Of a DNA stretch of 64,000 bases, positions 12,147-48,697 are shown one piece after another; the stretch's first letter is position 1, and every line of letters starts with the position of its first letter. The translations under genes were made by a program, and so were the position numbers. The stretch comes from Hydrogenophaga sp. GTDB lineage: Bacteria; Pseudomonadota; Gammaproteobacteria; Burkholderiales; Burkholderiaceae_C. The stretch covers positions 1 to 64,000 of the forward strand of contig NZ_SDDV01000007.1 of assembly GCF_014773545.1 (NCBI RefSeq). The letters are read 5' to 3'. Below the pieces are notes generated by a model. The model searched no databases. It saw only the letters and a list, made by a program, of their open reading frames with translations, and was not told the origin of the DNA.

Positions 12147-12341
12147 AATGCAGTCCTGGCTTGCACACCGCAAGGCGGTGTGCGAAAGGTTGAACGATGG
12201 CGCGGGGCAGACGGTTTGACCTTACCCATGGCCTGCGCTGTGGATGTGGGCGGCACCAGCCAGCCCTCTAAAATCGGCGGGAAAGCACCCGCGCAGCGCA
12301 GTATAGCCAGAACCAGGGCCGTGTCGGCCCAAATAACCCAC

Positions 12342-13604: not shown

Positions 13605-14563
13605 TGGCCGCTGTGCGCGCAGCACGCCAGGGTCGGGCTGGGTACACGCCCCGGCAACTGCTGGTCGCCTCGGTTTTCGTCGCTTTGCTGACGCTGGCGC
13701 TCAAGGTGCTGGCCTGGCAGGTCAGCGGCTCGGTTGGTCTGTTGTCGGACGCGCTGGAGTCGTTCGTCAACCTCGCCAGCGCGCTGTTTGCCCTGGCGAT
13801 GGTGACTGTTGCGCAGCGCCCGGCCGATTCGAACCATCCCTACGGCCACACCAAGGCCGAGTATTTTTCCAGCGGCTTCGAGGGCGTGCTGATCCTGGGG
13901 GCGGCGCTGGCCATCGGCTGGACTGCGGTCGATCGCTTGTTCAATCCGCAGCCGCTGGCCGCGCTGGGCCTGGGTCTGAGTTTGTCGCTGGCCAGCGCCG
14001 TGCTCAACGGGCTGCTGGCGGCGCTGATGCTGCACGCCGCGCGCCTCTACCGGGCCAGCGGCGTCGCGGGGGCCGAAGCGGTGCAGGCCGACGCGCGCCA
14101 CTTGCTGACCGACGTGTTCAGCACCGCCGGCGTCGTGCTCGGTGTGGCGGCGGTCTATTTCACCGGCTGGCTCTGGCTGGACCCATTGGTCGCGCTGCTG
14201 GTGGCGTTCAATATCTTGCGCGTTGCCGTGCGCTTGCTGCGCCGCTCCAGCGACGGCCTGATGGATCATGCGCTCGAGCCGGACGTGCAAGCGCAGATCG
14301 AGGCCGTGCTGGCGCGCTTCACCGACCCCGAGCGCCCCGGCCTGCTGCGCTTTGACCACGTCCAGACCCGACGCGCCGGCCAGCGCCGCTACGTCGACCT
14401 GCACCTGCACCTGCCGGCGTCTTGGTCACTGGGTCAGGCAGCGGCGGTTCGCACCCGTGTGGAGCACGAGCTGATGCGTGCGGTGCCGGGCCTGCGCGCT
14501 GGCATCCAGTTGCTGCCCAGTGAGGTCGAGGCGCGTTTCGACGCCGAGGAGGACGTGCCGTGA
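13604..14563 (+). CDS. Cation diffusion facilitator family transporter
   Basis: A 319-residue CDF protein with about six membrane segments between 20 and 215 and a cytoplasmic C-terminal metallochaperone-like domain (about 220-310). The TM2 site reads SDALESFVN and the TM5 site HLLTDVFS (HxxxD). The TM2 motif keeps one Asp where FieF has DxxxD, so metal choice is uncertain (Zn, Fe or Mn). It begins in the tyrS stop codon (TGATG), so it is translationally coupled to tyrS. Normally D-aminoacyl-tRNA deacylase follows; only a relic remains here. Confidence 0.92.
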   Translation: MAAVRAARQGRAGYTPRQLLVASVFVALLTLALKVLAWQVSGSVGLLSDALESFVNLASALFALAMVTVAQRPADSNHPYGHTKAEYFSSGFEGVLILGAALAIGWTAVDRLFNPQPLAALGLGLSLSLASAVLNGLLAALMLHAARLYRASGVAGAEAVQADARHLLTDVFSTAGVVLGVAAVYFTGWLWLDPLVALLVAFNILRVAVRLLRRSSDGLMDHALEPDVQAQIEAVLARFTDPERPGLLRFDHVQTRRAGQRRYVDLHLHLPASWSLGQAAAVRTRVEHELMRAVPGLRAGIQLLPSEVEARFDAEEDVP

Positions 14564-22123: not shown

Positions 22124-22181
22124 AAAACCAGACAAAAAAACCGAAATAGAGAGAACGCAAGCTCAATACCGTCAACCAAGG

Positions 22182-22210
22182 CGTCTGCTGCATGGCTTGA
22201 GCAGCAGACG
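22182..22210 (-). terminator. 10-bp hairpin between the polysaccharide locus and parC
   Basis: CGTCTGCTGC (22182-22191) and GCAGCAGACG (22201-22210) are a perfect inverted repeat with a 9-base loop, 11 bases after the methyltransferase stop codon. There is no T-run on the minus strand, so it may not terminate by itself. It marks the end of the 31-kb locus. Confidence 0.45.
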
Positions 22211-22221
22211 TCGAGCAGACC

Positions 22222-22842
22222 TCATTTGCGCGCCAGCGCCCAGACTGTGACCGGGAAATCAGGCTCATTTTTCAAGGAACCAAACCAGCCACGCCTGGCC
22301 CAATGACTGAAATTCGCCCGCACGCAAGCGCGATTGCCCCAGGAACCCGTGACGACCTGGTCGAGTGGAAAGCCCGCTTCGGCCAGAAAATACTTCAAGC
22401 CGGTTTCAGTCCAACGGGTGCAATCGTGGGGAATCGGGTGATATTTTATCAAAAACGGCGTAGTCATAAGAAAATAACCACCGGCCGGCAGCATGGAATG
22501 AATATTCCGGGCCGCTCGGTAGGGCCACAAAAGATGCTCGAACACCTGATCGGCAATGATCAGATTGACATCTGCCTCAATGACATCGGTGCATATATCG
22601 TAGGCGGGATAATTCATTTCCTGGAAGCTGCGAAACGGCAAGCTGCGCCAATGCTCGCCAGCAGAGATTTCCAGCACATCGAGCTTGCTCAGGCCAATGT
22701 CGGCCAGCAGCCTGGTACAAGCCTCATGCATGACCGGCCGGGTCCAGTGCCGGTGGTCATAGCCAAGCTTGCTCAACCACGCCTTGACTTGCTGCGGCGG
22801 CAGACGCTCGGCTAAATAATTCTGATAAATTCGTGTCAACAT
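22222..22842 (-). CDS. Class I SAM-dependent methyltransferase
   Basis: A 206-residue protein with a Rossmann-like methyltransferase core: motif I is altered (LDVLEISAGEHW), DICTD is the acidic loop, and ADQVFEHLLWPYRAARNIHSML matches the post-II region of Methyltransf_11 proteins. Last gene of the locus, 46 bases after a family-2 glycosyltransferase. It probably methylates a sugar or a glycan intermediate. The motif I GxGxG is replaced by ISAGE, which is seen in polysaccharide-locus methyltransferases of this kind. The target is unknown. Confidence 0.75.
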   Translation of the reverse strand: MLTRIYQNYLAERLPPQQVKAWLSKLGYDHRHWTRPVMHEACTRLLADIGLSKLDVLEISAGEHWRSLPFRSFQEMNYPAYDICTDVIEADVNLIIADQVFEHLLWPYRAARNIHSMLPAGGYFLMTTPFLIKYHPIPHDCTRWTETGLKYFLAEAGFPLDQVVTGSWGNRACVRANFSHWARRGWFGSLKNEPDFPVTVWALARK

Positions 22843-22888
22843 GAAATGGCCTCAAAAGAATAAGCTGGCAAGGACAGCAAAGAGCAAG

Positions 22889-23761
22889 TCAAGGCCTCAT
22901 CCGATTGCGCTGCTGCTTGATTTTGCGCAGCGCAAGAAAATCAAACCAGGTATCCCAGCCGCGCCAGACCAAGGGGATAGAAACTGAAGCATCAGCGTAC
23001 AAATGAGCTATGTGGGACGGCAATGCAGACAAGCCCTGCGCCTTCAGCGGCGCCCGCAGGAGTTGCCCTTGAAAATGACGCAGGCTGTAGCGGATTTTTC
23101 TGCGATAGTAAAGACGCAGATCTGCCAACGAAAGGGGGGACAGTTTGCGGTAAGAAAAAGTTGCCGCCGGACAAGCCACCACATGCTCCCGCTTCCACTC
23201 CTGCCTGGGATTCAAGTCCCAGTAGGCCAAGGAACCAACCAGCGAGTCATCGCCAATCAAACCGACCGGCAGGCGCACATGCTGCGCCCTGAGTCGGGTC
23301 ACGAATTCAGCCGACAGGGCATAAAGATTGCCCACCAGACCACCGCTGGCAAGAATCTGCTGGCGCAGCCGGGACGATGCGCGCTCAGTCGGCACACCGG
23401 TGGCGGCGTGGATGCAGGGCTGCGCCGCCAAGCCGGCCTCCAGAGCATCCAGACTGGCGCGGGAAATGGTGCAATCGCCGTCGGTAAACACATAGAGGTC
23501 AGCCTGCACGTTCAATTCATGGACAAACACATTCCAGGCATTCGCCTTGTCGCCGATGGAGATGATGATCAGGCGGCAAAAATCATTGCTTGCAGCATAG
23601 GCGCGCACCAAACCGTCGGTGGCGTCGGTGCTGCCGTTGTTTAGCACATAACAAACGTCGCCCGGCCCGCTGGCGGCCTTGATGTGATCGAGGCAATCGA
23701 TGATATTCCTTGCCTCATTGTGCGCAAACACCGCAATCGCACGCCTGAACTTGACTGACAT
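22889..23761 (-). CDS. Glycosyltransferase family 2
   Basis: A 290-residue GT-A protein. The nucleotide-sugar site starts IAVFAHNEARNI, and the metal-binding motif is TDGDC (VFTDGDCTISRASL). The product end has GDDSLVGS, possibly the catalytic acid region. The C-terminus has a short hydrophobic patch but no clear membrane helix. ATG 23761 is preferred to 23803 because GAGGT lies five bases before it. Probably cytoplasmic or membrane-associated, adding a sugar to the lipid-linked repeat unit. Sugar specificity cannot be read. Confidence 0.82.
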   Translation of the reverse strand: MSVKFRRAIAVFAHNEARNIIDCLDHIKAASGPGDVCYVLNNGSTDATDGLVRAYAASNDFCRLIIISIGDKANAWNVFVHELNVQADLYVFTDGDCTISRASLDALEAGLAAQPCIHAATGVPTERASSRLRQQILASGGLVGNLYALSAEFVTRLRAQHVRLPVGLIGDDSLVGSLAYWDLNPRQEWKREHVVACPAATFSYRKLSPLSLADLRLYYRRKIRYSLRHFQGQLLRAPLKAQGLSALPSHIAHLYADASVSIPLVWRGWDTWFDFLALRKIKQQRNRMRP

Positions 23762-23808
23762 GAGCACCTCAATCGAATTGAATGCCAAAACCCGTTGCGA
23801 CATAAAGA

Positions 23809-25527
23809 CTATATGAATGGCTTGGCTGCCTGCAGCAGATAGATGTAACGCAAAAAACCGATCCGACCCAAAAGGTACGCAAACAAAAGCTTGCCATGAT
23901 GCAGCAGTTCATGCGGAAAATCGTTGCGCTCAAGCATCTGCTTATAAAGATCGAGCTGCCGGCGCTGATTTAAACGCCTTTCACCTGCCGGCAGCCAGCC
24001 GTCCGTCCACTGATTGCGCAAACCAAGCGGCTCAGGAACAGGACAGGGATCGCTGTTCGGGTATGCCTGCCAAGGAACCGCTTGCACCGCCGCAGGAAAA
24101 GTAGACAACCATTGGTAATACAATCGATGACGCGCCAGCCACTCGGGCGGGGCTGACAAAGCCAGCGCCACAAAATCGGCATCACAAAACGGCAGCACAT
24201 AATCGATCCGGTGCAAATCCAAGTCTTCAAAGTGAGACGGCAGGAATTCGCCACGAATTTCCTGCGTGACAATGAAGGTGCGCAAACCGCGAGCCAACTC
24301 GGTACTGGTGCATCGCTGCAATTCAGCATGTACTGAACGATTCAGCGCAGCCAAGATGATCGCATAGTGTTTGGTGCGAAAAATATGCCTGGGCAAGAAA
24401 AATCCGCTGTTGCGAAAAAAAATCTGCAACACCTTTTCCACATCGCCCGATTGCTGCGCCAACAGCAAATCGGGAGTGGCGGTGGTTTGCGCCAGCACCG
24501 CATCACCACCATGTCCAGACCAAACCTGATGGGGTAGTTCTGGCAATTCATCTGCACCCAAACCAAGCCGCCACTGCTGATGAGCAAATATCCTTAGGTT
24601 GGCGCCAGCGGGTGCGCTCTTTTGCAGCTCAAAATGGTGCGTGCCCAAAGCCTGTGCGGCCTGCCTGCCCAGCACGCAATCAACCGACCCAGCCGGGGCA
24701 AAATTTATCGAGTGCACCTGTGCGCCCGCTTGACGCATGGCGGCTATCACGCAGCGCGAGTCCAGTCCTCCAGACAACTGAGCCACGGCTGAATGCTGGC
24801 TGCCAAGACGCAAGTGCACGGCCTGTGAAAAACAATGCTGCAACTCGTTGCACAAAGCAGAACGATCGAGCGTGAAGGGACTCAGACGACTCCAATCCCA
24901 ATAGACAGATTCTGCAGGTTGACCGGCAACAATATCAAGCAGCACGCCGGGAGCCAAACGTCGGATATGCTCGTGCACAGTCCGATTCGACAGTATGTAG
25001 CCCATGGCAGACTGCTGCGCGCACGCAGTCAAGTCACGCGGGTAATTCAAGTGAGGAGCTAGCACCAGCATCATGCGCAGGCTGCAGGAAAAGATCAAGC
25101 AGTCGTTGCTGCGCGCATAATAAAGCGGGCGTATGCCGAGCTTGTCGCTAGCCAAACGAATCCGATCTGCTGCGGGGTCCAGATGTACGCAGCAAAACGT
25201 GCCGCGCGCGCGCTGCAGCACATCGCTGCGGCCGATTTGCCAATCCTTATGCAAAATGGAAATAGCCAAAGACGGCTCAGCAGCACCATCTGCGCACGCA
25301 ATGACCGGGTCACCGGCCAGGCAGGCCAGACTGCCATCACTGTCATGCCACACGACAGCCGAAGGACTCGACTGCAGGTCGACGTGAGCGACAGCATGAC
25401 GGTCACCCAAAAAAATCCGTGGACGATCCCCAGCATGTCTGCTGAGCGTGCGCTCGAGCAGCTCAATTTGCTGATGCGAAACCGAAGTAGATTGACTTAG
25501 GCTGACAATACCCGAAAAAAACTGCAT
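23809..25527 (-). CDS. Asparagine synthase-like protein lacking the glutaminase cysteine
   Basis: A 572-residue AsnB-family protein. The N-terminal Ntn-type domain (MQFFSGIVSLS...) has no Cys after Met, so glutamine hydrolysis should be lost. The C-terminal ATP-pyrophosphatase domain has the P-loop SGGLDSR near 255. Such homologues in polysaccharide loci are thought to amidate or otherwise modify sugar acids, using ammonia or another amine. ATG 25527 is used; the longer TTG start adds MRLIF only. Compare the second AsnB-type gene at 40932, which keeps the Cys. Base composition here is less GC-rich than in the XrtA core. Confidence 0.8.
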   Translation of the reverse strand: MQFFSGIVSLSQSTSVSHQQIELLERTLSRHAGDRPRIFLGDRHAVAHVDLQSSPSAVVWHDSDGSLACLAGDPVIACADGAAEPSLAISILHKDWQIGRSDVLQRARGTFCCVHLDPAADRIRLASDKLGIRPLYYARSNDCLIFSCSLRMMLVLAPHLNYPRDLTACAQQSAMGYILSNRTVHEHIRRLAPGVLLDIVAGQPAESVYWDWSRLSPFTLDRSALCNELQHCFSQAVHLRLGSQHSAVAQLSGGLDSRCVIAAMRQAGAQVHSINFAPAGSVDCVLGRQAAQALGTHHFELQKSAPAGANLRIFAHQQWRLGLGADELPELPHQVWSGHGGDAVLAQTTATPDLLLAQQSGDVEKVLQIFFRNSGFFLPRHIFRTKHYAIILAALNRSVHAELQRCTSTELARGLRTFIVTQEIRGEFLPSHFEDLDLHRIDYVLPFCDADFVALALSAPPEWLARHRLYYQWLSTFPAAVQAVPWQAYPNSDPCPVPEPLGLRNQWTDGWLPAGERRLNQRRQLDLYKQMLERNDFPHELLHHGKLLFAYLLGRIGFLRYIYLLQAAKPFI

Positions 25528-25564
25528 AAAAATTAATCTCAACGATTAAACTTGTCGACGAATA

Positions 25565-26521
25565 CTAAGCAAGCAGACGAAGAAAAGCTTTTGGCATGAG
25601 ATGTATTTTGGGGTGGCGTGCATAACGAAGGTATGTTCGACATGCCGCAACAGTGGCAGAAAAACCCTGCGTGGGTGCAAAATACAACAACACCTCAGAC
25701 TGATTCGATAACAACTCTTGCAAGCGGGAACCTGCTGCCGGATCGAGCGCCAAAATGTTCTTGTTCCTGATCATTTCAAGCACTTTGAGCACCGCCAATG
25801 CCTGCGAATACTGTTTGCGCGGACCTGACATATTGCCAGCATGACGGTGAATGATGCAACCCACTCTGTCGATGAATATTAATTGTCCAAGCGCAGCCAA
25901 CCGCACAAAGAGTTCACGATCCTCTGCAAATCGAAGACTGTCGTCGTGCAGCGTCAACGAACCTCCGATACTTCGCGGAAACATAGCGCCACTGGTTGGG
26001 ATAAAGTTTCCTCCCAGCAAAGCAGACAAAATCGATGAATTCATGGGACGCACTGTGGCAGCGTCGCTGGAACTGCAATGGCGCAGCGCCAGCAAGCGAA
26101 AATCAGGCAGGCTGACGCGCTCGGAGTCTGGTGCAGTCACGTGAAACTCGCGCCGCATGGCAGAAAAATACAAGGTGGCGGCAGGGAATTGCTGCTGCGC
26201 CAGGTGCAAAAACTCGATATGCTCCGGCTCAAACTCGTCGTCGGCATCCAGCAAGGCTATATGAGTCGAAACAGCACTGCGAATGGCTAAATTGCGCGTC
26301 GCTGCAAGGCCTGAATTTTCTTGCTGCAAGACCCGAGTCGGAATGGATTGGGCAACCGCATGGCTTCGAGCCAATTCTGCAGTCTGGTCAGTCGAGCCAT
26401 CATCCACCACCAGAAGCTCATCCGGCAGATGGGTCTGTCGCAGCACGCTGTCGAGCGCGCGGACAATGAAATGTTCGGCGTTGAAGGCAGGAATGACGAC
26501 AGCGATGGAAATTTTTGACAT
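25565..26521 (-). CDS. Glycosyltransferase family 2
   Basis: A 318-residue GT-A enzyme: IAVVIPAFNAEHFIVRALDSVLRQT opens the fold, VVDDGSTD and ALLDADDEFEP carry the DxD metal site, and FAEDRELFVRLA is the ED acid/base motif. No membrane segment. ATG 26521 (MSKISIAVVIPAFNAE) fits the family; the track ORF adds 12 residues from a weaker start. It probably transfers one sugar of the repeat unit to the undecaprenyl-linked acceptor. Confidence 0.87.
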   Translation of the reverse strand: MSKISIAVVIPAFNAEHFIVRALDSVLRQTHLPDELLVVDDGSTDQTAELARSHAVAQSIPTRVLQQENSGLAATRNLAIRSAVSTHIALLDADDEFEPEHIEFLHLAQQQFPAATLYFSAMRREFHVTAPDSERVSLPDFRLLALRHCSSSDAATVRPMNSSILSALLGGNFIPTSGAMFPRSIGGSLTLHDDSLRFAEDRELFVRLAALGQLIFIDRVGCIIHRHAGNMSGPRKQYSQALAVLKVLEMIRNKNILALDPAAGSRLQELLSNQSEVLLYFAPTQGFSATVAACRTYLRYARHPKIHLMPKAFLRLLA

Positions 26522-26584
26522 CACAATTCTTCCAAAACGACGCAGAACTGGTAGCAATGAAGGTCAGTAAGGAATGGTATCGAT

Positions 26585-27640
26585 TCAACGAATGAGTTGA
26601 AAAAGCAAGCGCTGCAGCGAACCCTGAAGAAATGCACTGCGGCCACCCTGGCAGGCGCGCGACTGATAGCCCAGCGACTTTTTGAAAAACGTCAAACCCT
26701 GCCCGCCATCGCCACCGGGATCAGCAGCGACGCCGCCGGTATTGATTTCTCTACAGCCTTGCTCGCGCATCAAAAAAACCACCGCGAGCGCTGCAAAGGT
26801 GTTGGCGCCACTTTCATATGCACCCTGGCTGCAGCCGCGCAGTAATTCTATCGAGCGCGACCCGGTTCGCAACACGAAAGTTGCCACACAGGGGTCCTGA
26901 TCGGTAAAAGTGAGATAAACAGCGCCAACGCCACTGCGGCAACAGCGTTCGACAGCCGCAAAGTCCACACCCGGCAAGCCAATATACTGATAGTCGGTGT
27001 TGCCGCGCCCAACGCGCTTGCTTTTCGTATGGGACATCAGGTCTTGCAGTATGGATACGCGATCTTCTGCCTCATAAAGTTCAAAACGAGCGCCAGATTT
27101 CAATAGCTTGCGGTATGCCTGTCTCACCTTTGGCTTGGTGCCCAACAGCAACTGCTCGGGACTGGGCTGCAAATCAAGAAAGTATTCACTGATCTCGTGC
27201 TTCCAGGGCAGGATATCGGACGGCACAGCGTGGGGATGATCATAGGCAAGCATATCGACAAAGTACCAGCCCATCTGCTTGCCGTAGGCCAGCAGCGCGC
27301 TGATGCAGGCGCGCCGGCAATTCTCGTCAACCGCAGAACGGTAGACTGCACCAGTAAAAGAGATGAAACAGGCGTCCTGCCTGCGCAATAGGCCAGTGCC
27401 AACGGGTGCTACAACGCCGGCGAGCAAGCCCAGACATTCGTCGCCGTCATAAAACCGCAAGAACACAGGCTGGCGCTCAACTGTCGCAAGCGCGCTGAGA
27501 AACCGGCTCGACAGCAGCGGACTGCCAGAGAATTCGAGCAAGCAGCGCTCCCACTCTTGCAGGTCCAAGCACGCACTGATGCGCACATCGGCAATGGGCT
27601 GGGACAGGTGCATGGACTGCCGTGAAAAAAGCAAATTCAT
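26585..27640 (-). CDS. GNAT/FemAB-like N-acyltransferase
   Basis: A 351-residue protein with the double-GNAT layout of FemAB-like and BioF2-like enzymes. The second half has TKPKVRQAYRKLLKSGARFEL, YLTFTDQDPCVATFVLRTGSRSIELLRGCSQGAYESGANTFAALAVVFLM and REINTGGVAADPGGDGGQGLTFFKKSLG, resembling the acyl-binding core. Distinct from the XrtA-associated FemAB protein at 45672. It likely acylates an amino sugar of the polysaccharide. An in-frame ATG ten codons in is an alternative start. Adjacent to the flippase gene with a 2-base gap. Confidence 0.7.
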   Translation of the reverse strand: MNLLFSRQSMHLSQPIADVRISACLDLQEWERCLLEFSGSPLLSSRFLSALATVERQPVFLRFYDGDECLGLLAGVVAPVGTGLLRRQDACFISFTGAVYRSAVDENCRRACISALLAYGKQMGWYFVDMLAYDHPHAVPSDILPWKHEISEYFLDLQPSPEQLLLGTKPKVRQAYRKLLKSGARFELYEAEDRVSILQDLMSHTKSKRVGRGNTDYQYIGLPGVDFAAVERCCRSGVGAVYLTFTDQDPCVATFVLRTGSRSIELLRGCSQGAYESGANTFAALAVVFLMREQGCREINTGGVAADPGGDGGQGLTFFKKSLGYQSRACQGGRSAFLQGSLQRLLFQLIR

Positions 27641-27642
27641 GT

Positions 27643-29124
27643 CTAGGTTTTCCTGTTAAGTCTATGCCAGGCTGGCAACAGACGCTGCATGATGAACGCC
27701 TCGCCACCAGCTGGCCGACCAGCCAGCAGCCACAGGGCAAGAATGCAGAAAACATATAGCAAGGCTCCTGCCGTACACTTAATGAGCAGCACGAATAGCA
27801 CTGGCAGAGCCAGCGCTGACTGTAGCCAGAGCAGTACCAAGGCCATTACTGCCCCAGCCAGTACGGGTCGGTAAAAAGTCCTGAGCAAATCGCTCCAGCG
27901 CAATGCAGGAAAAGCGAGCAGCAACAATGTAAATGAAAGCACAATCGCCACGCCGGCTGAAATTGCAAAGCGTGTCCAGGCAATGTCTGTTGCTGGGGCC
28001 TGTGCAATGACAGTAAAGGCAGCAGCGACAAACAGCAGCGCCAGCATCCATGAAATCAGCACATTCCATCGAATCCGACCGAGCACGATCAGCATGTATT
28101 GGCTGCTGGCAATCAGGGCAGCTCCGGCATGTACCAGCGCCAACACCTGCAGGAACGGAGCCACCCCAAGCCAGGCCGGACCCAGCAGCACCTGCACCAG
28201 TTCGTCCGCGACAATGAGCAGTCCAATAGCTGCTGGCAAGGCCAGCAGATTCTGTGCACTTTGCGCCACCAAATAGAGTCGCTTAAGCTCTTGCGGGTCG
28301 TGCGCAGCAGCGACAAAAGCCGGAAATAGGGCGCGATTGATCGGCGCCAACAATTCAGTCGTCGGCATGGCGGCAATATCATCGGCCAGCGAGTATTCGC
28401 CCATGGTGCTCGTGTTGTTCCAGCGACCGACCAGGATGCGATGCAAATTGTCCTCGGTGTAGCCGCCTAGATTACCAATCAACATCCACTGCGAGACCGC
28501 GAATATTTCTCGCATTTTCCGGGTGCTCAGCCGAGGCCGCATTGGATGCATCAGATAACTCAGTACGATTCCGCTGCTGCGCCCGGCCAGGGTGCCGAAC
28601 ACCATCGCCCAATAGCTCTGCATATACCAGGCCAGCAGCATAGTGACAGAAAACCCAATCAGGCGCCGGAACAGGCGAAAGTAAAACTCGGACTGGAAAT
28701 CAAGGTCTTTCTGAAATTTGATGACCCCGATATTTTCCAGTCCGGTCAGGAACATTGCCAGTGCCAGCACCTGCAGCACCGGCTCGATGCGCTGGTCGAC
28801 GAAATAATCAGCAATCAAGCCGGAGCAGAAAAATATCAATAGCGCGGCCGCGCTGTTTTGCAATAGACGCAAGGTCCAGGCGGAGTTGTAATGTTCCTGT
28901 GTCGCACGTGGGTTTTGAATCAGGGCCACGTGCACCCCCATGTCGAGCAGGACATCGGCCAGTCCAACCGCCAGCGCCGCCATGGCAATGACGCCAAAAT
29001 CATCCGGCAGTAATAAACGCGCCAGAATCAGCGTGCTGGCCAAACCAATCAGCCGATCCACCCAGCGCGTGGCGACGGTAAAGAGCATGCCGCGCAGGAG
29101 GCTGGGGCGAGGGGTGTCGGTCAT
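27643..29124 (-). CDS. Polysaccharide flippase (Wzx-like, MOP superfamily)
   Basis: A 493-residue integral membrane protein with 12-14 predicted segments. The start TLILARLLLPDDFGVIAMAALAVGLADVLLDMGV is the usual opening of the lipopolysaccharide-biosynthesis/WzxC branch. It should flip lipid-linked repeat units to the periplasm, where polymerisation occurs. Its ATG overlaps the stop of the upstream fusion gene (ATGA). Confidence 0.88.
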   Translation of the reverse strand: MTDTPRPSLLRGMLFTVATRWVDRLIGLASTLILARLLLPDDFGVIAMAALAVGLADVLLDMGVHVALIQNPRATQEHYNSAWTLRLLQNSAAALLIFFCSGLIADYFVDQRIEPVLQVLALAMFLTGLENIGVIKFQKDLDFQSEFYFRLFRRLIGFSVTMLLAWYMQSYWAMVFGTLAGRSSGIVLSYLMHPMRPRLSTRKMREIFAVSQWMLIGNLGGYTEDNLHRILVGRWNNTSTMGEYSLADDIAAMPTTELLAPINRALFPAFVAAAHDPQELKRLYLVAQSAQNLLALPAAIGLLIVADELVQVLLGPAWLGVAPFLQVLALVHAGAALIASSQYMLIVLGRIRWNVLISWMLALLFVAAAFTVIAQAPATDIAWTRFAISAGVAIVLSFTLLLLAFPALRWSDLLRTFYRPVLAGAVMALVLLWLQSALALPVLFVLLIKCTAGALLYVFCILALWLLAGRPAGGEAFIMQRLLPAWHRLNRKT

Positions 29125-31355
29125 GCTGTGTCAGGCCTATGCAAGCGATCAAACAACTCGACCAGGCGCTGCGTCTGTGCCGCGCGCGAGTATTTTTCCA
29201 GTTGCTTGCAATTGGACTGAAATAAAGTTGCAGGGCGTTCGCGCCGGAGTTGCTCGAAAAAAATCAGCAGCACGGTCTTGATGGCATCGTGATTATTGCT
29301 GTCGGCCTGCCACACCTGTTGGTAGTTGGCTAGGAATGCCGCTGAATCGCCCTGCGGATCGACCAATGCCAGCAGCGGTCGCTGCGCGCGCAGATACTCG
29401 TAGATTTTGGCAGGAATTTGGGCATTGAATTGACTGCCTTGAATCACCAGCAAGCCGTCGGCGGCTAGCATTTCAGCGATCGCTTGCCGGTAGGGCACAG
29501 CTGGCGCCAGATCGACAATGGTTTCCAGCGAAAAACGGCTGGCGCAGGCCAGCACTTCTTTTTCGTGGTGCGCCGCCCGGAATCTGAGCTGCAATTGCTC
29601 GGGCCGCAGCAAGCCCTGATCGATCAGGCTGCGCAGCGCGGCAAACAAAGCGGACGGGTCCCGTTCGCGGGGATAAATCAAGCCGCTGTGCAACAAAACC
29701 AGCTTGCCTGCATCGACATCGCTGCGCTGCGCCTGCACTTGTTCAAATGCCGATTCATCATAGCCGTTCTCGATCACCCGGCACTTATGCGCCGCAGCCG
29801 GGTAGCGCTGCTGATAGGCGGTGGCGGCCCGAGCGGTTGTGAATACGCAGAAGGCGGCTTCTCGCATGGCCTGCTGCTCAAGCAGGTTCCAAAGGCGGCG
29901 CTGCACCCCAGCGGCTGGAAATGTATCGGTCAGCATCGGGTCGCGAAAATCGGCCACCCAGGGCAGGCCGCTCAGTCGCGCCAGGCTGGCGGCGATCCCG
30001 TGTGCGGTGGCTATCGGGTAAGTACTCCAGATCAGTTGCGGCCGCTTGCGTCTGATCTCTTGCAAACCTGCCAGCACAGCGCCGGGCCACCAACTGGACC
30101 AGCGGTCAGGCCAGGCAAAAGCCGCCGGATATTTTCCGAACAGCGACAGATGCCGGGAGGCGTCGAGCGCAAAGCCGCGCAGGATGCGGGTGGCAGCGGG
30201 TATAGACGCCACCAGATCGGTGCGCGATTCGACGTAGGCGCGCGGACTCGCGGTCAAGACGGTGGGGTGCCAGTTGTGTGCAGGCAGATTTTTGACAAAA
30301 TTCAACGTGCGCAAAACGCCGCTGCTGCCCGCCTGCGGCGGAAAATGAAAAGCGACCATCAGTACACTTTTGCCGGATTCATTTTCCCGCAGGCGCTGCG
30401 CATGTGTTTTCTTTTGCTGCCATAGTTGCCGGTTCAGGCGGGCCCCAGCGCTTAGCGCAGGCGTGCATCTGGGTAACTGCAGTACCGAAGTGCTGTGGCT
30501 TGCCAGCCCCGGCTGCGTGCTCACGGCCAGACAGTAGCCGCAACGGCTGACCATTTCCATATGCTCCGAGCGATACCCCAGCCCCGGCTCGCCAAAGGGA
30601 TAGGCCAGTGCCTGCACCCGACCTTTAATTAACCCTTCCAGTTGTTCTTTGGACTGACCGATTTCCTGATAAGCCAGCGTGGCTGGGCAGCACGTCAGCA
30701 TGGCATTGGAAATGGTTTGACTGCCGATGGAAAATCCCCGGCCATGAAGTGCGCGCACCTGTTCGGGCAGCAGGCGCGGGGTTTGCATCGGGTTGCTCTT
30801 CAATTGCGTCTCGATCTGCTGCAGGTATTGTTCGCGTGGCGCCGATTCTTGCGCACGCAATTTGCTTTCGAGCTGGCTGATGGTCTGCAAGCGTGCGCTG
30901 GTGTTACCGAGTTTGAGCGCTGAAGCTGCAATGGAAGGCAAAACCAACTCATCAATGTCTGCTGCTGCCTGCAGGACTGCGTGGCGCAGTCGATCGCTCC
31001 ATAAAGGGTGGCCAAAAAACTGTCCGCTGCTGATAAAGAAGGTGGCGTGCAGTTGCTGCTGCTCTAGTTGGGACGCGACCGCATGCAACCATTGAGTGCT
31101 GCCCTGATCGAAGGTGATGGACGCTGCGGCGCCAGGCAGCTGGCCCGCACGCAATCCCAACACCGCATCAGATAGCGGCAGCACCCGGTAGTTGTTGTTT
31201 ATGCGCAAGAGCAGTTTTTGAAAAGCACGCAGCGCCGCTTCACGCGTATCGGCAGAGTTGTCAAAATCAGCCGGCATGACGAACCTGAACAGCGTCAGCT
31301 TGCCGCGCAAGAGCCAGCTGTTCGTTGCGGTCAGCAGGGTTTCAAGGTGTTCCAT
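29121..31355 (-). CDS. Fusion: metal-site-less NodB-type deacetylase domain plus glycosyltransferase
   Basis: A 744-residue two-domain protein. Residues about 60-300 follow the polysaccharide deacetylase fold: SITFDQG (motif 1), LHATFFISSGQF, SIGSQTISNAML (motif 2), AYPFGEPG (motif 3), CGYCLAVST. The normal metal ligands are Asp of TFDDG and two His of SHTxSH; here they are Gln84, Gln213 and Asn217, so the metal site is gone. Residues about 328-744 are a GT-B glycosyltransferase (LMVAFHFPPQAGSSGVLRTLNFVKNL, PWVADFRDPM, VIENGYDESAFE, AQIPAKIYEYLRAQRPLLALV). The deacetylase half is probably a glycan-binding or structural module for the transferase. The start overlaps the ligase gene by 14 bases, and the stop overlaps the flippase ATG. 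Confidence 0.82.
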   Translation of the reverse strand: MEHLETLLTATNSWLLRGKLTLFRFVMPADFDNSADTREAALRAFQKLLLRINNNYRVLPLSDAVLGLRAGQLPGAAASITFDQGSTQWLHAVASQLEQQQLHATFFISSGQFFGHPLWSDRLRHAVLQAAADIDELVLPSIAASALKLGNTSARLQTISQLESKLRAQESAPREQYLQQIETQLKSNPMQTPRLLPEQVRALHGRGFSIGSQTISNAMLTCCPATLAYQEIGQSKEQLEGLIKGRVQALAYPFGEPGLGYRSEHMEMVSRCGYCLAVSTQPGLASHSTSVLQLPRCTPALSAGARLNRQLWQQKKTHAQRLRENESGKSVLMVAFHFPPQAGSSGVLRTLNFVKNLPAHNWHPTVLTASPRAYVESRTDLVASIPAATRILRGFALDASRHLSLFGKYPAAFAWPDRWSSWWPGAVLAGLQEIRRKRPQLIWSTYPIATAHGIAASLARLSGLPWVADFRDPMLTDTFPAAGVQRRLWNLLEQQAMREAAFCVFTTARAATAYQQRYPAAAHKCRVIENGYDESAFEQVQAQRSDVDAGKLVLLHSGLIYPRERDPSALFAALRSLIDQGLLRPEQLQLRFRAAHHEKEVLACASRFSLETIVDLAPAVPYRQAIAEMLAADGLLVIQGSQFNAQIPAKIYEYLRAQRPLLALVDPQGDSAAFLANYQQVWQADSNNHDAIKTVLLIFFEQLRRERPATLFQSNCKQLEKYSRAAQTQRLVELFDRLHRPDTA

Positions 31356-32649
31356 CGATCAATGGCAATTGGGCCTGTCGGCGTTGTTGCTGCCGGATGA
31401 CCTCCAGCAGCATCATGCAGATGTAGGGCAGCTCAAAGTACGCCACGCTGAGCAAAGAACCGGCCACCAAGTAGACGCACAGCGCAATGATCAACATGCC
31501 GGCCAGATCGCCGGCCCAGCGCTGCGCGACACCGGCCTGTTTGACTAGCCGGCGAATTTCTTGGTAGGTGTATGCGGCGTTGATGAAAAGGGCCAGAAAA
31601 ATAAAAAACCCAACAAAACCCAGATCGCCCAGCACCTCGAACCAGATGCTGTGCGCCGCCACTCCGCTGCGGCCAACATCTGGCGTTTCAATGAAACCCA
31701 GTAGACCCGGTTCGTCCTTGAATTTGTCCCAGACCGGGTACGATTGAATCGCCCGAAAGCCACCACCAAAAATCGGATGCTCGACTGCAATGGCTGAGCT
31801 GACCTTCCAGGCGGTGACTCGGCCCATGAAAGACTCATCTTCTTCAGCGGTTTGGATGGTTTGCATGCGTTCGGTCCATTCGGTCGGCGCGAGCTGCAGC
31901 ACCAGAAAACCGCTCAGCAGCACAAACACCAGTCCGGGAATGATTTTCCTGCTGCGCAGCACGATCAGTAGGGCGACGGTAAACAAGGCGATCAGGCCGC
32001 CGCGCGAATGGGTGGCGACTACAGCCAACACGGTCAGGAGCAGGGCGCCGGCAAAGCCCCAGCGAATGAGCTTGTGCGAGCTGTACTGCCAAAGGTAGTA
32101 GAGCAGCGGCAATACCATGGCCAGCACCATGGCGAGGTGGTTGTTGTCACCAAATTTCAAGATCACCTGGGCGTTGTGGGCGCCCCCACTGGCTATGAAT
32201 TTCAAGCCGTCCAGGACACCATGAAAGCTGGTTGCAATGGCGATCATGATCACCAGGGCATGGATGCGCAAGCGATTTGTCACCAGCATCGGCATGAACA
32301 GACAAAATAATACGGTCTTTGCCAGGTTGCTGAACAGCTCCCAATTTCGCACCAACCCAGGATAGGCAAACAGGGCGCAGAAAAAACCGTGCAGCACGAA
32401 CAGCAAAAATAAAACAGTGGTGCGGTTGAACTCGAAGCGCTGATTTTCGCTGTCCTTCAGAAGCAGCAAGCTGGCCATGGTGATCATGGCAAAAATTTGC
32501 ACGAATGGCACGCCGATCATGAAGCCGTAGAGATAACTTCCGATTGCGATCAGACCGGCCCAGCCCCACAGCAAATAGGCAGTATACGAATGGGTGAAGG
32601 CCAGCGGCACGAATAGCAGCATGAAACCGAAGACGAGCAGGTCACGCAC
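31342..32649 (-). CDS. O-antigen ligase-type polymerase, exosortase A-associated O-glycosylation ligase family
   Basis: A 435-residue membrane protein with about 11-12 segments. It opens RDLLVFGFMLLFVPLAFTHSYTAYLLWGWAGL, the pattern of the putative O-glycosylation ligase found beside xrtA. The Wzy/WaaL signature region is THSRGGLIAL, followed by a large periplasmic loop (GGGFRAIQSYPVWDKFKDEPG...AAHSIWFEVLGDLG). GTG 32649 with AGGA nine bases upstream is the preferred start; the track ORF adds 37 unlikely residues that overlap the small gene upstream. It either polymerises repeats or transfers glycan to protein. Confidence 0.85.
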   Translation of the reverse strand: MRDLLVFGFMLLFVPLAFTHSYTAYLLWGWAGLIAIGSYLYGFMIGVPFVQIFAMITMASLLLLKDSENQRFEFNRTTVLFLLFVLHGFFCALFAYPGLVRNWELFSNLAKTVLFCLFMPMLVTNRLRIHALVIMIAIATSFHGVLDGLKFIASGGAHNAQVILKFGDNNHLAMVLAMVLPLLYYLWQYSSHKLIRWGFAGALLLTVLAVVATHSRGGLIALFTVALLIVLRSRKIIPGLVFVLLSGFLVLQLAPTEWTERMQTIQTAEEDESFMGRVTAWKVSSAIAVEHPIFGGGFRAIQSYPVWDKFKDEPGLLGFIETPDVGRSGVAAHSIWFEVLGDLGFVGFFIFLALFINAAYTYQEIRRLVKQAGVAQRWAGDLAGMLIIALCVYLVAGSLLSVAYFELPYICMMLLEVIRQQQRRQAQLPLIDGTP

Positions 32650-32815
32650 GGGGCTTGTCCTTATTCGGCTTTTTTGCAGCCGGGTCCCCGGCTTCGATTT
32701 TGAAGGAGAACAGGCCGAGATGGGATTTTTTCCCCGACAGCCGGGCTTGACGCACGGCAATCAACAGCAGCAGCACCAGCAGCAGTTGGGCCAGCAAAAT
32801 CAATCCAACGATCAT
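32642..32815 (-). CDS. 57-residue single-pass membrane protein, unknown
   Basis: A small gene hidden inside a longer shadow ORF of the track. ATG 32815 overlaps the TGA of the upstream glycosyltransferase (ATGA), and GGAG lies six bases before it, so it is translationally coupled. The protein is MIVGLILLAQLLLVLLLLIA followed by a basic, soluble tail (VRQARLSGKKSHLGLFSFKIEAGDPAAKKPNKDKPRA). Its 3' end overlaps the ligase start. N-out/C-in topology by positive-inside rule. Unrecognised; perhaps an accessory of the ligase or an XrtA complex. Confidence 0.6.
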   Translation of the reverse strand: MIVGLILLAQLLLVLLLLIAVRQARLSGKKSHLGLFSFKIEAGDPAAKKPNKDKPRA

Positions 32816-33981
32816 GCCAGGCTCCGAAACAGCTTGAGTTGTGCTTGGGTGGTGGCGTCCCAGGAAAAACCTTGCGCGTGCGCGCGTGTGGCTGCGCGGC
32901 TGGGTGGGGTTTGCATCAATTGCTGCCACGCGGCCACCAGCGCCGCCGGATCGCGTTGCTGCAGCAACACCCCGGCTGCCGGGTGGTTTACGATGTCGGG
33001 CGTGCCGGAAACGGCCGTGGCGAGCACTGGCGTTCCGCAGGCCATGGCTTCGAGCAGCACGTTGGGCCAGCCTTCGCTGCGGCTGCACAGAGCGAGCGCG
33101 TCGGCGGCGCTGTACCACCATTTGAGCTGATCTTGCGCCACCTGCCCAATGAAGTGCACTCGGTCTGCCACCCCGCAGCGCTGCGCGGTGGCTTGCAAAG
33201 ACTGGCGCAGCGGTCCAGCGCCGATCAGCAACAGCTCCAGTGCAGGAATGCTCTCGATCGCCTCAATTGCAATGTGCTGGCCTTTGAGTTCGACCAGGTT
33301 GCCGACCATCAAAAGGTATTGCTTTTGCATGCTCAAGCCCAATTGCTGTCGGGCGCCGGTGCGCGGCTCGGGGCAAAAGCGCTGCAAATCGACGCCGTTG
33401 CGCATCGTCTTGACCTTATTCGCGTCGGCGCCGAGCCGCACCAGTTGGTCGGTCAGCGCTTGCGATACGCCAATGGAGGCGGCGGCTTTTGCAGCGGCAT
33501 CCAGCATCCAGCGGCGCGGCAGCGCATAGCGTGCGATCAGGTTGATGTCGGAGCCGCGCGCGGTCACCACAAACGGTTTGTTCGACCAGCGCGCGAGCAG
33601 GGCTGCCGCCACCCCGTCGGGGTAGTAGTAGTGGGCGTCGATCAGTTGAAAATCAAAGCCAGCGCGCTGGAGTTGGCGCAGTGTGGGCCAGGCGGCGCGC
33701 GCCATCGCGTAGGGGGCCAGATGCATGCCGACTTTGGGCGCCAGCAGGTAGCGGGGGTGGTGGACCTCGATGCCGTTGCGGTGTTCAAAGCGCGGTGTGG
33801 CGGCAAACTGCGCGTAGGCGCCAAAGCGGGGCGATTGGAACGGAAACCAGGGCACCGGCGCCACCACGCGCGCCTGCACCTGCCCGGATTTGAGCAACTC
33901 GCGCAGCCGGGTTTCGACAAAAATGCCGTGTACCGGCCGCACCGAACTGGGAAATAACGATGAAAATAGAAGAATTTTCAC
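32812..33981 (-). CDS. Glycosyltransferase family 4
   Basis: A 389-residue GT-B enzyme: MKILLFSSLFPSSVRPVHGIFVETRL, acceptor domain 1-190, donor domain with SRSEGWPNVLLEAMACGTPVLATAVSGTPDIV (the EX7E motif). This matches the glycosyltransferase type commonly coded next to the exosortase A O-glycosylation ligase. It starts 53 bases after wecC. Probable retaining transfer from a nucleotide sugar, possibly the ManNAcA made by WecB and WecC, but donor identity is inferred only from proximity. Confidence 0.88.
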   Translation of the reverse strand: MKILLFSSLFPSSVRPVHGIFVETRLRELLKSGQVQARVVAPVPWFPFQSPRFGAYAQFAATPRFEHRNGIEVHHPRYLLAPKVGMHLAPYAMARAAWPTLRQLQRAGFDFQLIDAHYYYPDGVAAALLARWSNKPFVVTARGSDINLIARYALPRRWMLDAAAKAAASIGVSQALTDQLVRLGADANKVKTMRNGVDLQRFCPEPRTGARQQLGLSMQKQYLLMVGNLVELKGQHIAIEAIESIPALELLLIGAGPLRQSLQATAQRCGVADRVHFIGQVAQDQLKWWYSAADALALCSRSEGWPNVLLEAMACGTPVLATAVSGTPDIVNHPAAGVLLQQRDPAALVAAWQQLMQTPPSRAATRAHAQGFSWDATTQAQLKLFRSLA

Positions 33982-34034
33982 GACAACCGATTCCCGTACT
34001 GCAAGCTCAGCGGCGCGCGACTCATGCGCTGCCC

Positions 34035-45671: not shown

Positions 45672-46724
45672 TTAGCCCAGATGGCGCACGATGTGCGGCC
45701 CCAGCCAGTTGGCCACCCCCAGCGGCAGGCGGCGCCAAGCGGAAATCAGCAACTGGTAGTTGGCGTTGGCCGGGTTGTGTTGCGGAATGGCTTCGCGCTT
45801 GTAGAGGCAGAACTCGTAGTGCAGCGGCGTCGGCTCGAAGCCCCAGTTTTTCTTGAAGGCGTAGGTGCCGGTGCCGACCTTGCTGCGGCCGTAGTCGAAC
45901 ACTTTGAGTCCGCGCGCGCAGGCGCGGCGCATCAAATCCCAGTACTTGAAGTCGTTGGCGGCCAGATCGCGTGCGGTCTCGTCGTCGCCGGCGTAGTAGG
46001 CCAGCACCTGGTCGCGGAAGTAAAAGCTCAACACGCTGCTGAGTGGGCGGCCATCGGGCGCGCAAACCGTCAGCACCTCGCAGTCGCTGCCAAAGGTGTC
46101 GAGCAAGGCCTGAAAGTAGCGCTGCGACAAGGCCGGTGTGCCGTGGCGGTGCACGTTGTGGGAAAACAGCTTGAAAAAACGCTTCGCATCGGGATCGAGA
46201 TGCGCCGTCAAGCCATTTTTGATGCCTTTGCGCACCATGGCGCGCTGCTTGCGCGGAATCGCCAGCAGGTTGTCTTCTTCGGTTGGCAGGATTTCCTTGC
46301 GGAAGGTGACGTACAGGTCTTGTGCCGGCCAGTCGGGGTGGCGCCGCTGCAGGTGGCGCAATTCGAGGTGATCGACGCCGAGTTGACGCGCCAGTTGCTG
46401 TGCTTCTTGCTCCAGGACTGCCGCCGCCGCCTCGGTGCTGGCCGCCACGCCGCCGTAGACGGTGAACGGCAAGGCGGTCAGGGCGTTGCCAAACAGCCAG
46501 CTCTTGACGTGCCCGAGCGGCAACACGCCCTGGATTTGGCCGTGTGCCTGGGCGTAGAGGAAATAGGTGTCGTGGCGCAACTGCTGGCGGATGATGGACT
46601 GCCAGCCCGCGCGGTGAAAAAAGGTCGCCTGTGGGCAAGCCAGGACGAAAGCGTCCCAGCGCGCTTGCTCGGCGCTGTCGCTGCCGCTGAGGCGGTGTAC
46701 CCGCAGCGCGGTCGCATCAGACAC
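45672..46724 (-). CDS. FemAB-family XrtA/PEP-CTERM system-associated protein
   Basis: A 350-residue FemAB-like double-GNAT protein. Diagnostic stretches: ATFFHRAGWQSIIRQQLRHDTYFLYA, VYGGVAAS, IPRKQRAMVRKGIKNGL, YAGDDETARDLAANDFKYWDLMRRACARGLKVFDYGRSKVGTGTYAFKKNWGFEP. Family members are coded in almost every XrtA polysaccharide locus. Proposed role is peptidyl- or amino-acyl transfer to the glycan; not demonstrated. Overlaps the deacetylase stop by 8 bases. Confidence 0.92.
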   Translation of the reverse strand: MSDATALRVHRLSGSDSAEQARWDAFVLACPQATFFHRAGWQSIIRQQLRHDTYFLYAQAHGQIQGVLPLGHVKSWLFGNALTALPFTVYGGVAASTEAAAAVLEQEAQQLARQLGVDHLELRHLQRRHPDWPAQDLYVTFRKEILPTEEDNLLAIPRKQRAMVRKGIKNGLTAHLDPDAKRFFKLFSHNVHRHGTPALSQRYFQALLDTFGSDCEVLTVCAPDGRPLSSVLSFYFRDQVLAYYAGDDETARDLAANDFKYWDLMRRACARGLKVFDYGRSKVGTGTYAFKKNWGFEPTPLHYEFCLYKREAIPQHNPANANYQLLISAWRRLPLGVANWLGPHIVRHLG

Positions 46725-47577
46725 AGGGCGCTCCAGCCGTTGGAAAGAAAATGTGATCCATGCGACCCCAGCGAAAGTCCTGCAGCAGCCGCTGCAGGCG
46801 CTGCTCGGTGCGGCCGATGTTGACGTAGTGGCGAAAGCGCGTTTTCAGACCGACGCCGGGCACGCGCGGTTGATCGGGGTCGATCTCCCACGGATGGCAG
46901 TAAAAAATGACGGGCTGCGCGTCGCGCAGATTGATTTGGCGCAGCATCCAGCGCGATAGCGCGTAGGGCAAGAGCCGAAAATAGCCGCCGCCGCTGGACG
47001 GCAGGTTGCGCTGGAACACGCGCAAGGTGCTGGGCGGAATCTCCAGCAGTCCGGCGCGCACCGGGTGGGCAAAACGCGGCGCCTCGGGCATGCCGTAGTG
47101 GTCGTGCCGCACCGGGTAAATGCTCGAGCTGTAGCGGTAGCCGGCGCGCAACAAGGCATCGAGCGCCCACAAATTGCCCGCACCGATGGAAAAACTGGGC
47201 GCACGATAGCCCAGCACCGCCACCCCGCAGAGGTCTTCCAAAATTGCTTTGGCCGAATAAACGTCTTGGTAAAACGCCGCTTCGCTCAGGTCGCTGGCGC
47301 GCTGATGACCGTAGCCGTGGCTGGCGAGCTCGTGCCCGTCGGCGACGATGCGCCGCACCAGTGCCGGGTAGCGTTCGGCGACCCAGCCCAGGGTGAAAAA
47401 AGTGGCTTGGGTGCTCCGCTGCGCCAGCAGGTCGAGCAGGCGGTTGACGTTGCGTTCAACCCGGCATTCGCAGCGCTCCCAGTCGGCGCGATCAATGTGG
47501 GGCGCAAACGCCGATACCTGAAAGTAATCTTCGACGTCAATCGTCAAGGCGTTGGTAATGGACGCACGCTCAGTCAT
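46717..47577 (-). CDS. XrtA system polysaccharide deacetylase
   Basis: A 286-residue NodB-type deacetylase: TIDVEDYFQVSAFAPHI is the opening of the XrtA-associated family, HELASHGYGHQ carries two metal His, and the TFFTLGWVAERYP strand and DUF3473 C-terminus (WEIDPDQPRVPG...RFRHYVNIGRTEQRLQRLL) are intact. Unlike the fused domain at 29121 this protein keeps its metal ligands and should be active on N-acetylated glycan. ATG 47577 overlaps the ATPase stop by 8 bases. Confidence 0.93.
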   Translation of the reverse strand: MTERASITNALTIDVEDYFQVSAFAPHIDRADWERCECRVERNVNRLLDLLAQRSTQATFFTLGWVAERYPALVRRIVADGHELASHGYGHQRASDLSEAAFYQDVYSAKAILEDLCGVAVLGYRAPSFSIGAGNLWALDALLRAGYRYSSSIYPVRHDHYGMPEAPRFAHPVRAGLLEIPPSTLRVFQRNLPSSGGGYFRLLPYALSRWMLRQINLRDAQPVIFYCHPWEIDPDQPRVPGVGLKTRFRHYVNIGRTEQRLQRLLQDFRWGRMDHIFFPTAGAPCV

Positions 47578-48697
47578 GGTGATTGGCTCTTGCTGCATCG
47601 GGCGTCGGCGCTTTGCGGCCCGCTTGGGTGATTTTTTTCAAGACCGTCAGAATCTCCAGGCTGATGCGTTCTTGGCGCAGCACGCTGCGTTCGATGCGCA
47701 ACAGGCGTGCACTGAGCTGCTCGGCCGAGACGCGACCGAGTTGTTCGTTCAGGCTGTCGGCCAAGCCGGCGTCCAGGTTGAGGTTGGCCAGATCGAACTC
47801 TTCAGCACTCCAGTCGACCACCGCAGACGCGTGGGCGGGTGGGCTCCAGGCTTGCCTGCGGCTCGGCTGCGTCGTGGTCGGGGTGTCGTTTTCGGCTTGA
47901 ATCTCGCCCAGCACCTCGTGCAAGGCGGCGCTGTCGATATACGGGTTCTCGCTCAGATAACCCTGCAGCAGTAGACGGTCGCATATGCTGTTGATGCGCC
48001 GAGGAATACCGCCCGAATGCAGGTGAATGTCGGCAAACACCGCCGCTTCGAAACGGGGACTGCCGAGCGCTCCGGCACACTTGAGCCGATGCTCGATATA
48101 GGCGCGGGTGTCCTCGGCGTCCAAGGGTCCTAGGTGGCAGCGGGCGGTGACGCGCTGGCGCAACTGCAGCATGCCCGGGCCTTGCAAAATGTCCCGGAAT
48201 TCGGGCTGTCCGATCAGAAAAGTCTGCAGCAGCGCCTGCTCGCCGAACTGAAAATTCGACAGCATGCGCAACTCTTCCACCGCCTGCGGCTGCAGATTCT
48301 GCGCTTCGTCGACGATCAGCAGACAGCGCTTGCCCTGGGTGGTTTGGGTGATGAAGAACGCCTCCAGCGCCATCAGCAGGTCGGCCTTGCTGTGGCCGCG
48401 CACCGACACACCGAAAGCGCCGCAGACCAGCCGTAGCGCATCTTCGGCGCCGAGTTGTGTGCTGACCAGGTGGGCAGCGACTACGGTGCCGTCTTCCAGG
48501 CTCTCCAGCAAATCGCGCACGACGGTGGTTTTGCCCGCGCCGACCTCGCCGGTGATGACAATGAAGCCCTCGCCGCGCATGACGCCGTAGACCAGGTACG
48601 AACGCGCCCGCCGGTGCGGCTTGCTGCTGTAATAAAAACGGGGATCAGGGTTGAGCTGAAAGGGCTTGCCGCTCAAGCCGTAAAAGGCTTCGTACAT
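47570..48697 (-). CDS. XrtA-associated AAA ATPase
   Basis: A 375-residue ExeA-like AAA ATPase: MYEAFYGLSGKPFQLNPDPRFYY, Walker A GEVGAGKTTVV, Walker B CLLIVDEAQNL, and sensor-type arginines in GGIPRRINSICDRLLL. The C-terminal 110 residues are a variable, coiled-coil-prone tail (LNEQLGRVSAEQLSARLLRIERSVLRQERISLEIL). Found with TyrKin and chain-length genes in XrtA loci. Probably couples ATP hydrolysis to polysaccharide assembly or export. Confidence 0.93.
   Translation of the reverse strand: MYEAFYGLSGKPFQLNPDPRFYYSSKPHRRARSYLVYGVMRGEGFIVITGEVGAGKTTVVRDLLESLEDGTVVAAHLVSTQLGAEDALRLVCGAFGVSVRGHSKADLLMALEAFFITQTTQGKRCLLIVDEAQNLQPQAVEELRMLSNFQFGEQALLQTFLIGQPEFRDILQGPGMLQLRQRVTARCHLGPLDAEDTRAYIEHRLKCAGALGSPRFEAAVFADIHLHSGGIPRRINSICDRLLLQGYLSENPYIDSAALHEVLGEIQAENDTPTTTQPSRRQAWSPPAHASAVVDWSAEEFDLANLNLDAGLADSLNEQLGRVSAEQLSARLLRIERSVLRQERISLEILTVLKKITQAGRKAPTPDAARANHHD

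Follow-up and report, generated by a model that had tools for sequence, protein, structure and literature searches.

The 64,000-nucleotide window analyzed here (positions 1 to 64,000 of the forward strand of contig NZ_SDDV01000007.1, assembly GCF_014773545.1, Hydrogenophaga sp.) carries an exopolysaccharide locus of the XrtA type, in which one gene (29121-31355) encodes a deacetylase domain and a glycosyltransferase (GT) fused in a single frame. All window features mentioned below lie on the minus strand. In the encoded protein (hereafter, the query), the deacetylase domain has lost its metal ligands and its catalytic acid, and the GT half is intact. The best explanation, to which we assign a probability of roughly 0.6, is that a bifunctional enzyme that adds a sugar and then de-N-acetylates it has lost its deacetylase here and that the dead domain is kept as a structural element of an active transferase, where it possibly holds the acceptor. 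The fusion, the unique catalytic loss, the intact GT and the hydrophobic core are read from the sequence, and the fold is taken from structure prediction.

We suggest the following scheme for this enzyme. The orthologues would be bifunctional, probably cytoplasmic enzymes of XrtA-type exopolysaccharide loci. At the cytoplasmic face of the membrane, a lipid-linked acceptor may receive a sugar, probably an N-acetylhexosamine, from the GT4 half, and in the relatives the fused NodB2 half would then strip the N-acetyl group of that sugar. In the query lineage the deacetylation step would have dropped out with the transferase half intact, so the sugar concerned presumably stays acetylated. The dead domain may persist as a folded scaffold for the transferase and possibly holds the acceptor.

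Catalytic residues of the deacetylase domain

The open reading frame starts with ATG and encodes 744 amino acids followed by a stop. The Pfam model Polysacc_deac_1 (PF01522) matched residues 74-274 above its cut-off (E-value 2.8e-12), and the GT4 N-domain models (PF13579/PF13439) matched residues 349-534. Based on PF01522, AlphaFold2 (AF2) and Foldseek, the NodB/CE4 domain, of the NodB2 type and presumably catalytically dead, occupies the N-terminal residues ~15-305 (30441..31313). The intact C-terminal domain of the GT4 type (GT-B fold) covers residues ~329-744 (29124..30371), as judged by Pfam, conservation and Foldseek.

The frame and the motifs that the original prediction had read from the DNA letters are all present. 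Motif 1, TFDQG (residues 81-85; 31101..31115), keeps the catalytic base Asp83 and carries the substitution D84Q. Motif 2, SQTISN (residues 212-217; 30705..30722), carries H213Q and H217N, and with these three changes the whole metal-binding Asp-His-His triad is gone. Further landmarks are TFFISSG (105-111), AYPFGEPG in the motif 3 region (251-258; 30582..30605), where Pro253 is kept and Asn254 is replaced by Phe, and GYCLAVST (273-280). In addition to the three ligands already reported as missing by the original prediction, a fourth loss was found: the motif-5 His, which acts as the catalytic acid, is Val26 in the query (31278..31280).

In the alignment, H26, D83, D84, H213 and H217 are invariant in 102 of 102 distinct relatives, which confirms the loss of the ligands; the query has V, D, Q, Q and N, Asp83 being the only one of the five catalytic positions kept. 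The assignment of these positions was supported by a profile alignment to PplD, in which H26 falls on YH, D84 in TFDD, and H213 and H217 on HTVNH. Besides N254F, seven further positions that are invariant in 36/36 aligned relatives are altered (Y86S, K167R, Y168A, P218A, I219M, F250L and D260G). The motif residues T81-D83, G85, Y252 and P253 are retained. Since the changes are in-frame single-residue swaps within otherwise alignable motifs, no frameshift artefact is indicated, and to judge from the alignment the motif substitutions are not chance variation.

In proteins of NodB2 topology, the motif-5 catalytic His is located at the N-terminus (PMC10967932). The predicted fold of the query is of this kind, and for this reason the loss of H26 matters. 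With the metal triad and the catalytic acid gone, no deacetylation is expected by the accepted CE4 mechanism (PMC4505593). Of the features of a CE4 enzyme, the query has the predicted NodB barrel and the base Asp and has neither the metal triad nor the catalytic acid His, so its domain should not be able to work by this mechanism. With a NodB fold (by prediction), lost essential residues, an open frame and a preserved core, the domain is a pseudoenzyme as far as sequence comparison can tell. Annotation of the gene as a polysaccharide deacetylase would be functionally wrong.

The AF2 model of the full-length protein had a mean predicted local distance difference test score (pLDDT) of 90.8 and a predicted template modeling score (pTM) of 0.87; for the deacetylase domain alone, the values were 90.4 and 0.89. 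With two domains in the chain, the full-length pTM is high enough to suggest that the halves are held in a defined orientation to each other and hence have a probable interface. Foldseek matched the domain model to PplD (6dq3), PgaB (3vus/4f9d), IcaB (4wcj), BA0330 (4v33) and BC0361, in agreement with the NodB fold that the original prediction had assumed to be retained. The GT half was matched to MshA, GlgM and PimA, and the GT-B fold and the conserved residues of its own subfamily are present in it (Pfam, conservation and Foldseek).

Relatives were taken from a scan of one genome per species, which gave 80 loci. The deacetylase and the GT4 are encoded in one frame in ~20 of them, all betaproteobacterial orthologues, so the fusion noticed in the window is a recurrent one. 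In ~15 further loci, mostly from Oxalobacteraceae, the same deacetylase and GT4 are encoded by adjacent genes. In the deacetylase tree, the query is the sister of the protein from locus L004 and is nested among fused proteins whose motifs are intact. A loss of ligands common to the whole fusion family was ruled out, because every fused relative keeps all of them; the comparison of homologues proposed in the original prediction thus shows that, among the proteins compared, the loss is confined to the query. Since the fused relatives retain D-D-H-H and the N-terminal His, the ancestral fusion almost certainly functioned as a bifunctional enzyme, and these patterns indicate that deacetylase activity was almost certainly lost only in the query lineage.

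A search of 67 genus members and of samples from the family and the order, with ~400 genomes each, revealed no homologue above ~50% identity and no sister lineage sharing the ligand loss. Plasmid-borne relatives were limited to two Alteromonas records with 27.6% identity.

Divergence of the two halves and rival explanations

The two halves of the query have diverged very differently. Of the 44 positions of the deacetylase domain at which 90% or more of the relatives agree, the query lost 14, and the relatives lose 0-5; in the GT half, 97 of 98 conserved positions are kept and one is lost. On a fixed topology, the terminal branch of the query is 1.28 substitutions per site for the deacetylase and 0.45 for the GT, and that of its sister L004 is 0.55 and 0.46, respectively. 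The p-distance averaged over the ten fused proteins that are closest, calculated with an active-site mask partly picked after the losses had been seen, is 0.63 in the active-site columns of the query vs 0.32 in L004. For the other deacetylase columns the values are 0.59 vs 0.535, and for the GT 0.443 vs 0.446. At the same time, the query has kept 48 of the 50 hydrophobic columns that are conserved outside the active site, and the conserved G, L and W positions of the domain are largely retained. The fair reading is a strong loss at the active site with milder relaxation elsewhere and, on the aligned sequences, a preserved core.

Several observations weigh against a folded domain maintained for the sake of the transferase. 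Of the unanimous columns that lie outside the four motifs, 14 of 65 are lost in the query and 7 of 72 in the sister L004. When the motif windows were preset, the enrichment of losses in them was modest (11/24 vs 14/65 elsewhere, Fisher p = 0.034), and 19 of 223 circular shifts were as extreme as the observed enrichment; in L004, only 2 of 26 unanimous motif columns are lost. Because the non-motif columns are relaxed too, slow decay of the domain has to be reckoned with. The dead version occurs in one genome only, and no relative close enough for a dN/dS estimate was found among those searched. Many relatives carry the GT without a fused deacetylase, and this class of GT therefore does not need the domain. 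Finally, the confidence of the models is no proof that the query folds, because AF2 worked from an alignment of homologues whose active sites are intact, which would bias the model toward the fold of these proteins.

These points lead to the alternative that the domain is a functionless passenger, which decays under relaxed selection and stays open only since stops and frameshifts would kill the downstream transferase. The occurrence of the GT without the domain in many genomes and the loss in a single lineage make this alternative a serious one; the acceleration outside the motifs and the small genome (2.2 Mb) also agree with it. On the other hand, the nearly complete hydrophobic core and the largely retained G, L and W positions speak against it, as do the conservative replacements that make up six of the 14 losses outside the motifs. 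We regard it as unlikely overall, although worth keeping in sight.

The original prediction had described the fusion as a non-enzymatic glycan reader that positions acceptor chains for the transferase. As a description of the fusion class, this was not supported, given the intact D-D-H-H and N-terminal His of all fused relatives. For the query itself, it agrees with the sequence and can be reformulated as a special case of the retained structural domain: an amide pocket formed by Gln84, Gln213 and Asn217 would bind an N-acetylated acceptor chain and present it to the transferase. All three ligands have been turned into amide side chains, which hydrogen-bond sugars; the fold and several motif residues (T81-D83, G85, Y252, P253) are retained, and glycan-binding non-catalytic CE4 proteins are known, such as BA0330/0331 on peptidoglycan (PMC4505593). 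However, H26V, Y86S, N254F, Y168A and W300A alter conserved positions that probably line the pocket, so substrate contacts may be lost, and a single base change suffices for His to Gln as well as for His to Asn, so chance may account for the amide pattern. A reading of this kind is rather doubtful. Its most specific form, in which the deacetylase half became an acceptor-binding module whose Gln/Gln/Asn site would grip the acetylated lipid-linked sugar and hand it to the transferase, is a shade more doubtful still. If it were true, the loss of catalysis would both alter the charge of the polymer and create a built-in acceptor-selecting domain.

It is improbable that the domain has become a changed enzyme with a metal-independent reaction based on Asp83. 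Asp83 is indeed retained, and 3CL6 (allantoinase PuuE), a NodB-fold enzyme that lacks the metal triad and is not metal-dependent, provides a precedent (PMC10967932), but the catalytic acid His26 is lost, and no new set of polar residues pointing to another active site was recognised in the domain in the alignment with 36 relatives. Least credible of all, and unsupported by the sequence comparison, is a metal site rebuilt in the pocket from other residues (e.g., C222, C223 and C297): the domain has five Cys, and few or none of the relatives have a Cys in place of C222, C272, C275 and C297, but a Cys at position 223 is shared by 16 of 36 relatives with a normal site (i.e., C223 is ancestral), the remaining Cys occur sporadically, and C272/C275 are found at a strand start, where NodB active sites are not found. 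No replacement ligands were thus recognised by sequence, and the original prediction stands as regards the lost ligands, the predicted NodB match and the presence of the fusion in relatives.

In effect, the query would be a natural knock-out in which one half of a bifunctional polysaccharide enzyme is disabled, and well-matched orthologues with intact sites, at ~50% identity, are available for comparison. It allows one to test whether a fused deacetylase domain serves the transferase beyond deacetylation, and what is lost from an exopolysaccharide once a single deacetylation step is missing.

Gene neighborhood and genome

The fusion gene overlaps the start of its downstream neighbor and the end of its upstream neighbor and is therefore a member of an operon. 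Upstream, an XrtA-associated O-ligase/polymerase-like gene (TIGR03097, 31342..32760) shares 14 bp with the start of the fusion gene; downstream, a gene for a Wzx-type flippase (27643..29124; Polysacc_synt_3, E-value 3.9e-74) shares 4 bp with its end. A hydropathy analysis revealed no transmembrane segment in the fusion protein. A similar arrangement was found around the fused relatives: the O-ligase gene is directly upstream in most loci (among them L004, L005 and L007-L010), Wzx is downstream of the fused gene in L004-L006, and WecB/WecC are close by.

The locus belongs to the XrtA/PEP-CTERM exopolysaccharide type, as it contains XrtA, a TIGR03006 deacetylase, FemAB, an ATPase, an amidotransferase and stp glycosyltransferases (family matches TIGR03109, TIGR03006, TIGR03019, TIGR03015, TIGR03108, TIGR03087, TIGR04063 and TIGR03097). 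The separate XrtA-system polysaccharide deacetylase (46717..47598), which the original prediction had considered active, scored 444.8 bits with TIGR03006 (cut-off 276.2) and has intact DVED and HGYGH motifs; on this evidence it is the probable active deacetylase of the locus. A PF01522 search of the genome revealed no second member of the fused-type deacetylase family. A replacement copy was thereby rejected, as only two other PF01522 genes were present, one for the deacetylase of the TIGR03006 family and one, at the end of a contig, for an unrelated CE4 protein.

The genome has a size of 2.2 Mb at 99.98% completeness, and well-assembled members of the genus mostly have 4-6 Mb, which indicates a reduced genome. 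The GC content across 22000-34000 of the window is 0.54-0.60 vs ~0.65 around it. In view of this dip, the fusion gene and the rest of the variable half of the XrtA locus resemble a cassette that has been exchanged.

Other genes of this region were also inspected. An AsnB-like protein is encoded at 23809-25542; its likely N-terminus, MQFFSGIV, is without Cys2, as is that of an AsnB-like relative in L004 (10084-11937, MSLFAGVI). Cys2 is required for glutamine hydrolysis and is absent in amide-forming ligases of the beta-lactam synthetase or lasso cyclase kind. In L004, the AsnB-like gene is followed by a gene for an AMP-binding protein (12031-14178), which by eye resembles nonribosomal peptide synthetases; the glycan may therefore be decorated with aminoacyl or acyl groups. 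The 351-amino-acid protein encoded at 26585-27640 in the window is GNAT/FemAB-like by eye, has no Pfam match and no relative in the compared loci, and seems to occur only in the window's version of the locus. It should be noted that the L004 record (JALHRC010000016.1) is titled Candidatus Paceibacterota and yet contains a betaproteobacterial XrtA locus; it is probably a misnamed or contaminated metagenome-assembled genome (MAG).

In six further loci (L148 1045-3357, L149 938-3280, L150 1059-3326, L151 1242-3713, L034 2566-4866 and L157 718-3234), a related deacetylase with intact motifs is fused to a different type of GT4, a canonical one with a Glycos_transf_1 C-domain. The deacetylase-GT fusion therefore probably arose more than once.

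Comparison with known systems

The closest counterparts of the query are the fused deacetylase-GT4 proteins of L004, L006 (Hydrogenophaga MAG), L005 (Rhodoferax MAG) and L007 (Acidovorax), which have the same domain order and ~45-50% full-length identity. Their loci also resemble that of the query, with the O-ligase upstream and often Wzx downstream. They keep H26, D83, D84, H213 and H217, whereas the query keeps only D83.

The NodB2-topology de-N-acetylases PplD (6dq3), PgaB (3vus, 4f9d), IcaB (4wcj) and BC0361/BA0330 share with the query the predicted fold and the motif order with the catalytic His at the N-terminus. Unlike the query, they carry the metal triad (PplD according to the hidden Markov model alignment, the others according to the literature), and none of them has been described as fused to a GT-B transferase. 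The C-terminal half of the query has the GT-B fold in common with the GT4 transferases MshA, PimA and PglA, at ~11-17% identity.

NodB proteins without catalysis have been described before, namely BA0150 (4M1B) and the CDA of E. cuniculi (2VYO) (PMC10967932). No activity could be measured for BA0330 and BA0331; they bind peptidoglycan, and mutated versions complement (PMC4505593). Like the query, these proteins have a NodB fold that is inactive or without the required residues; they are not known as GT fusions, and their losses are independent of that in the query. Moreover, BA0330/BA0331 keep the metal triad, which the query lacks. The non-catalytic N-terminal domain of NDST1 was rejected as a precedent, since it has a Rossmann-like fold and is not a NodB pseudo-domain. 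In the literature searched, no report of a pseudo-deacetylase fused to a GT was found. Pseudo-NodB domains as such are already known, and what is new here is the architecture and the context.

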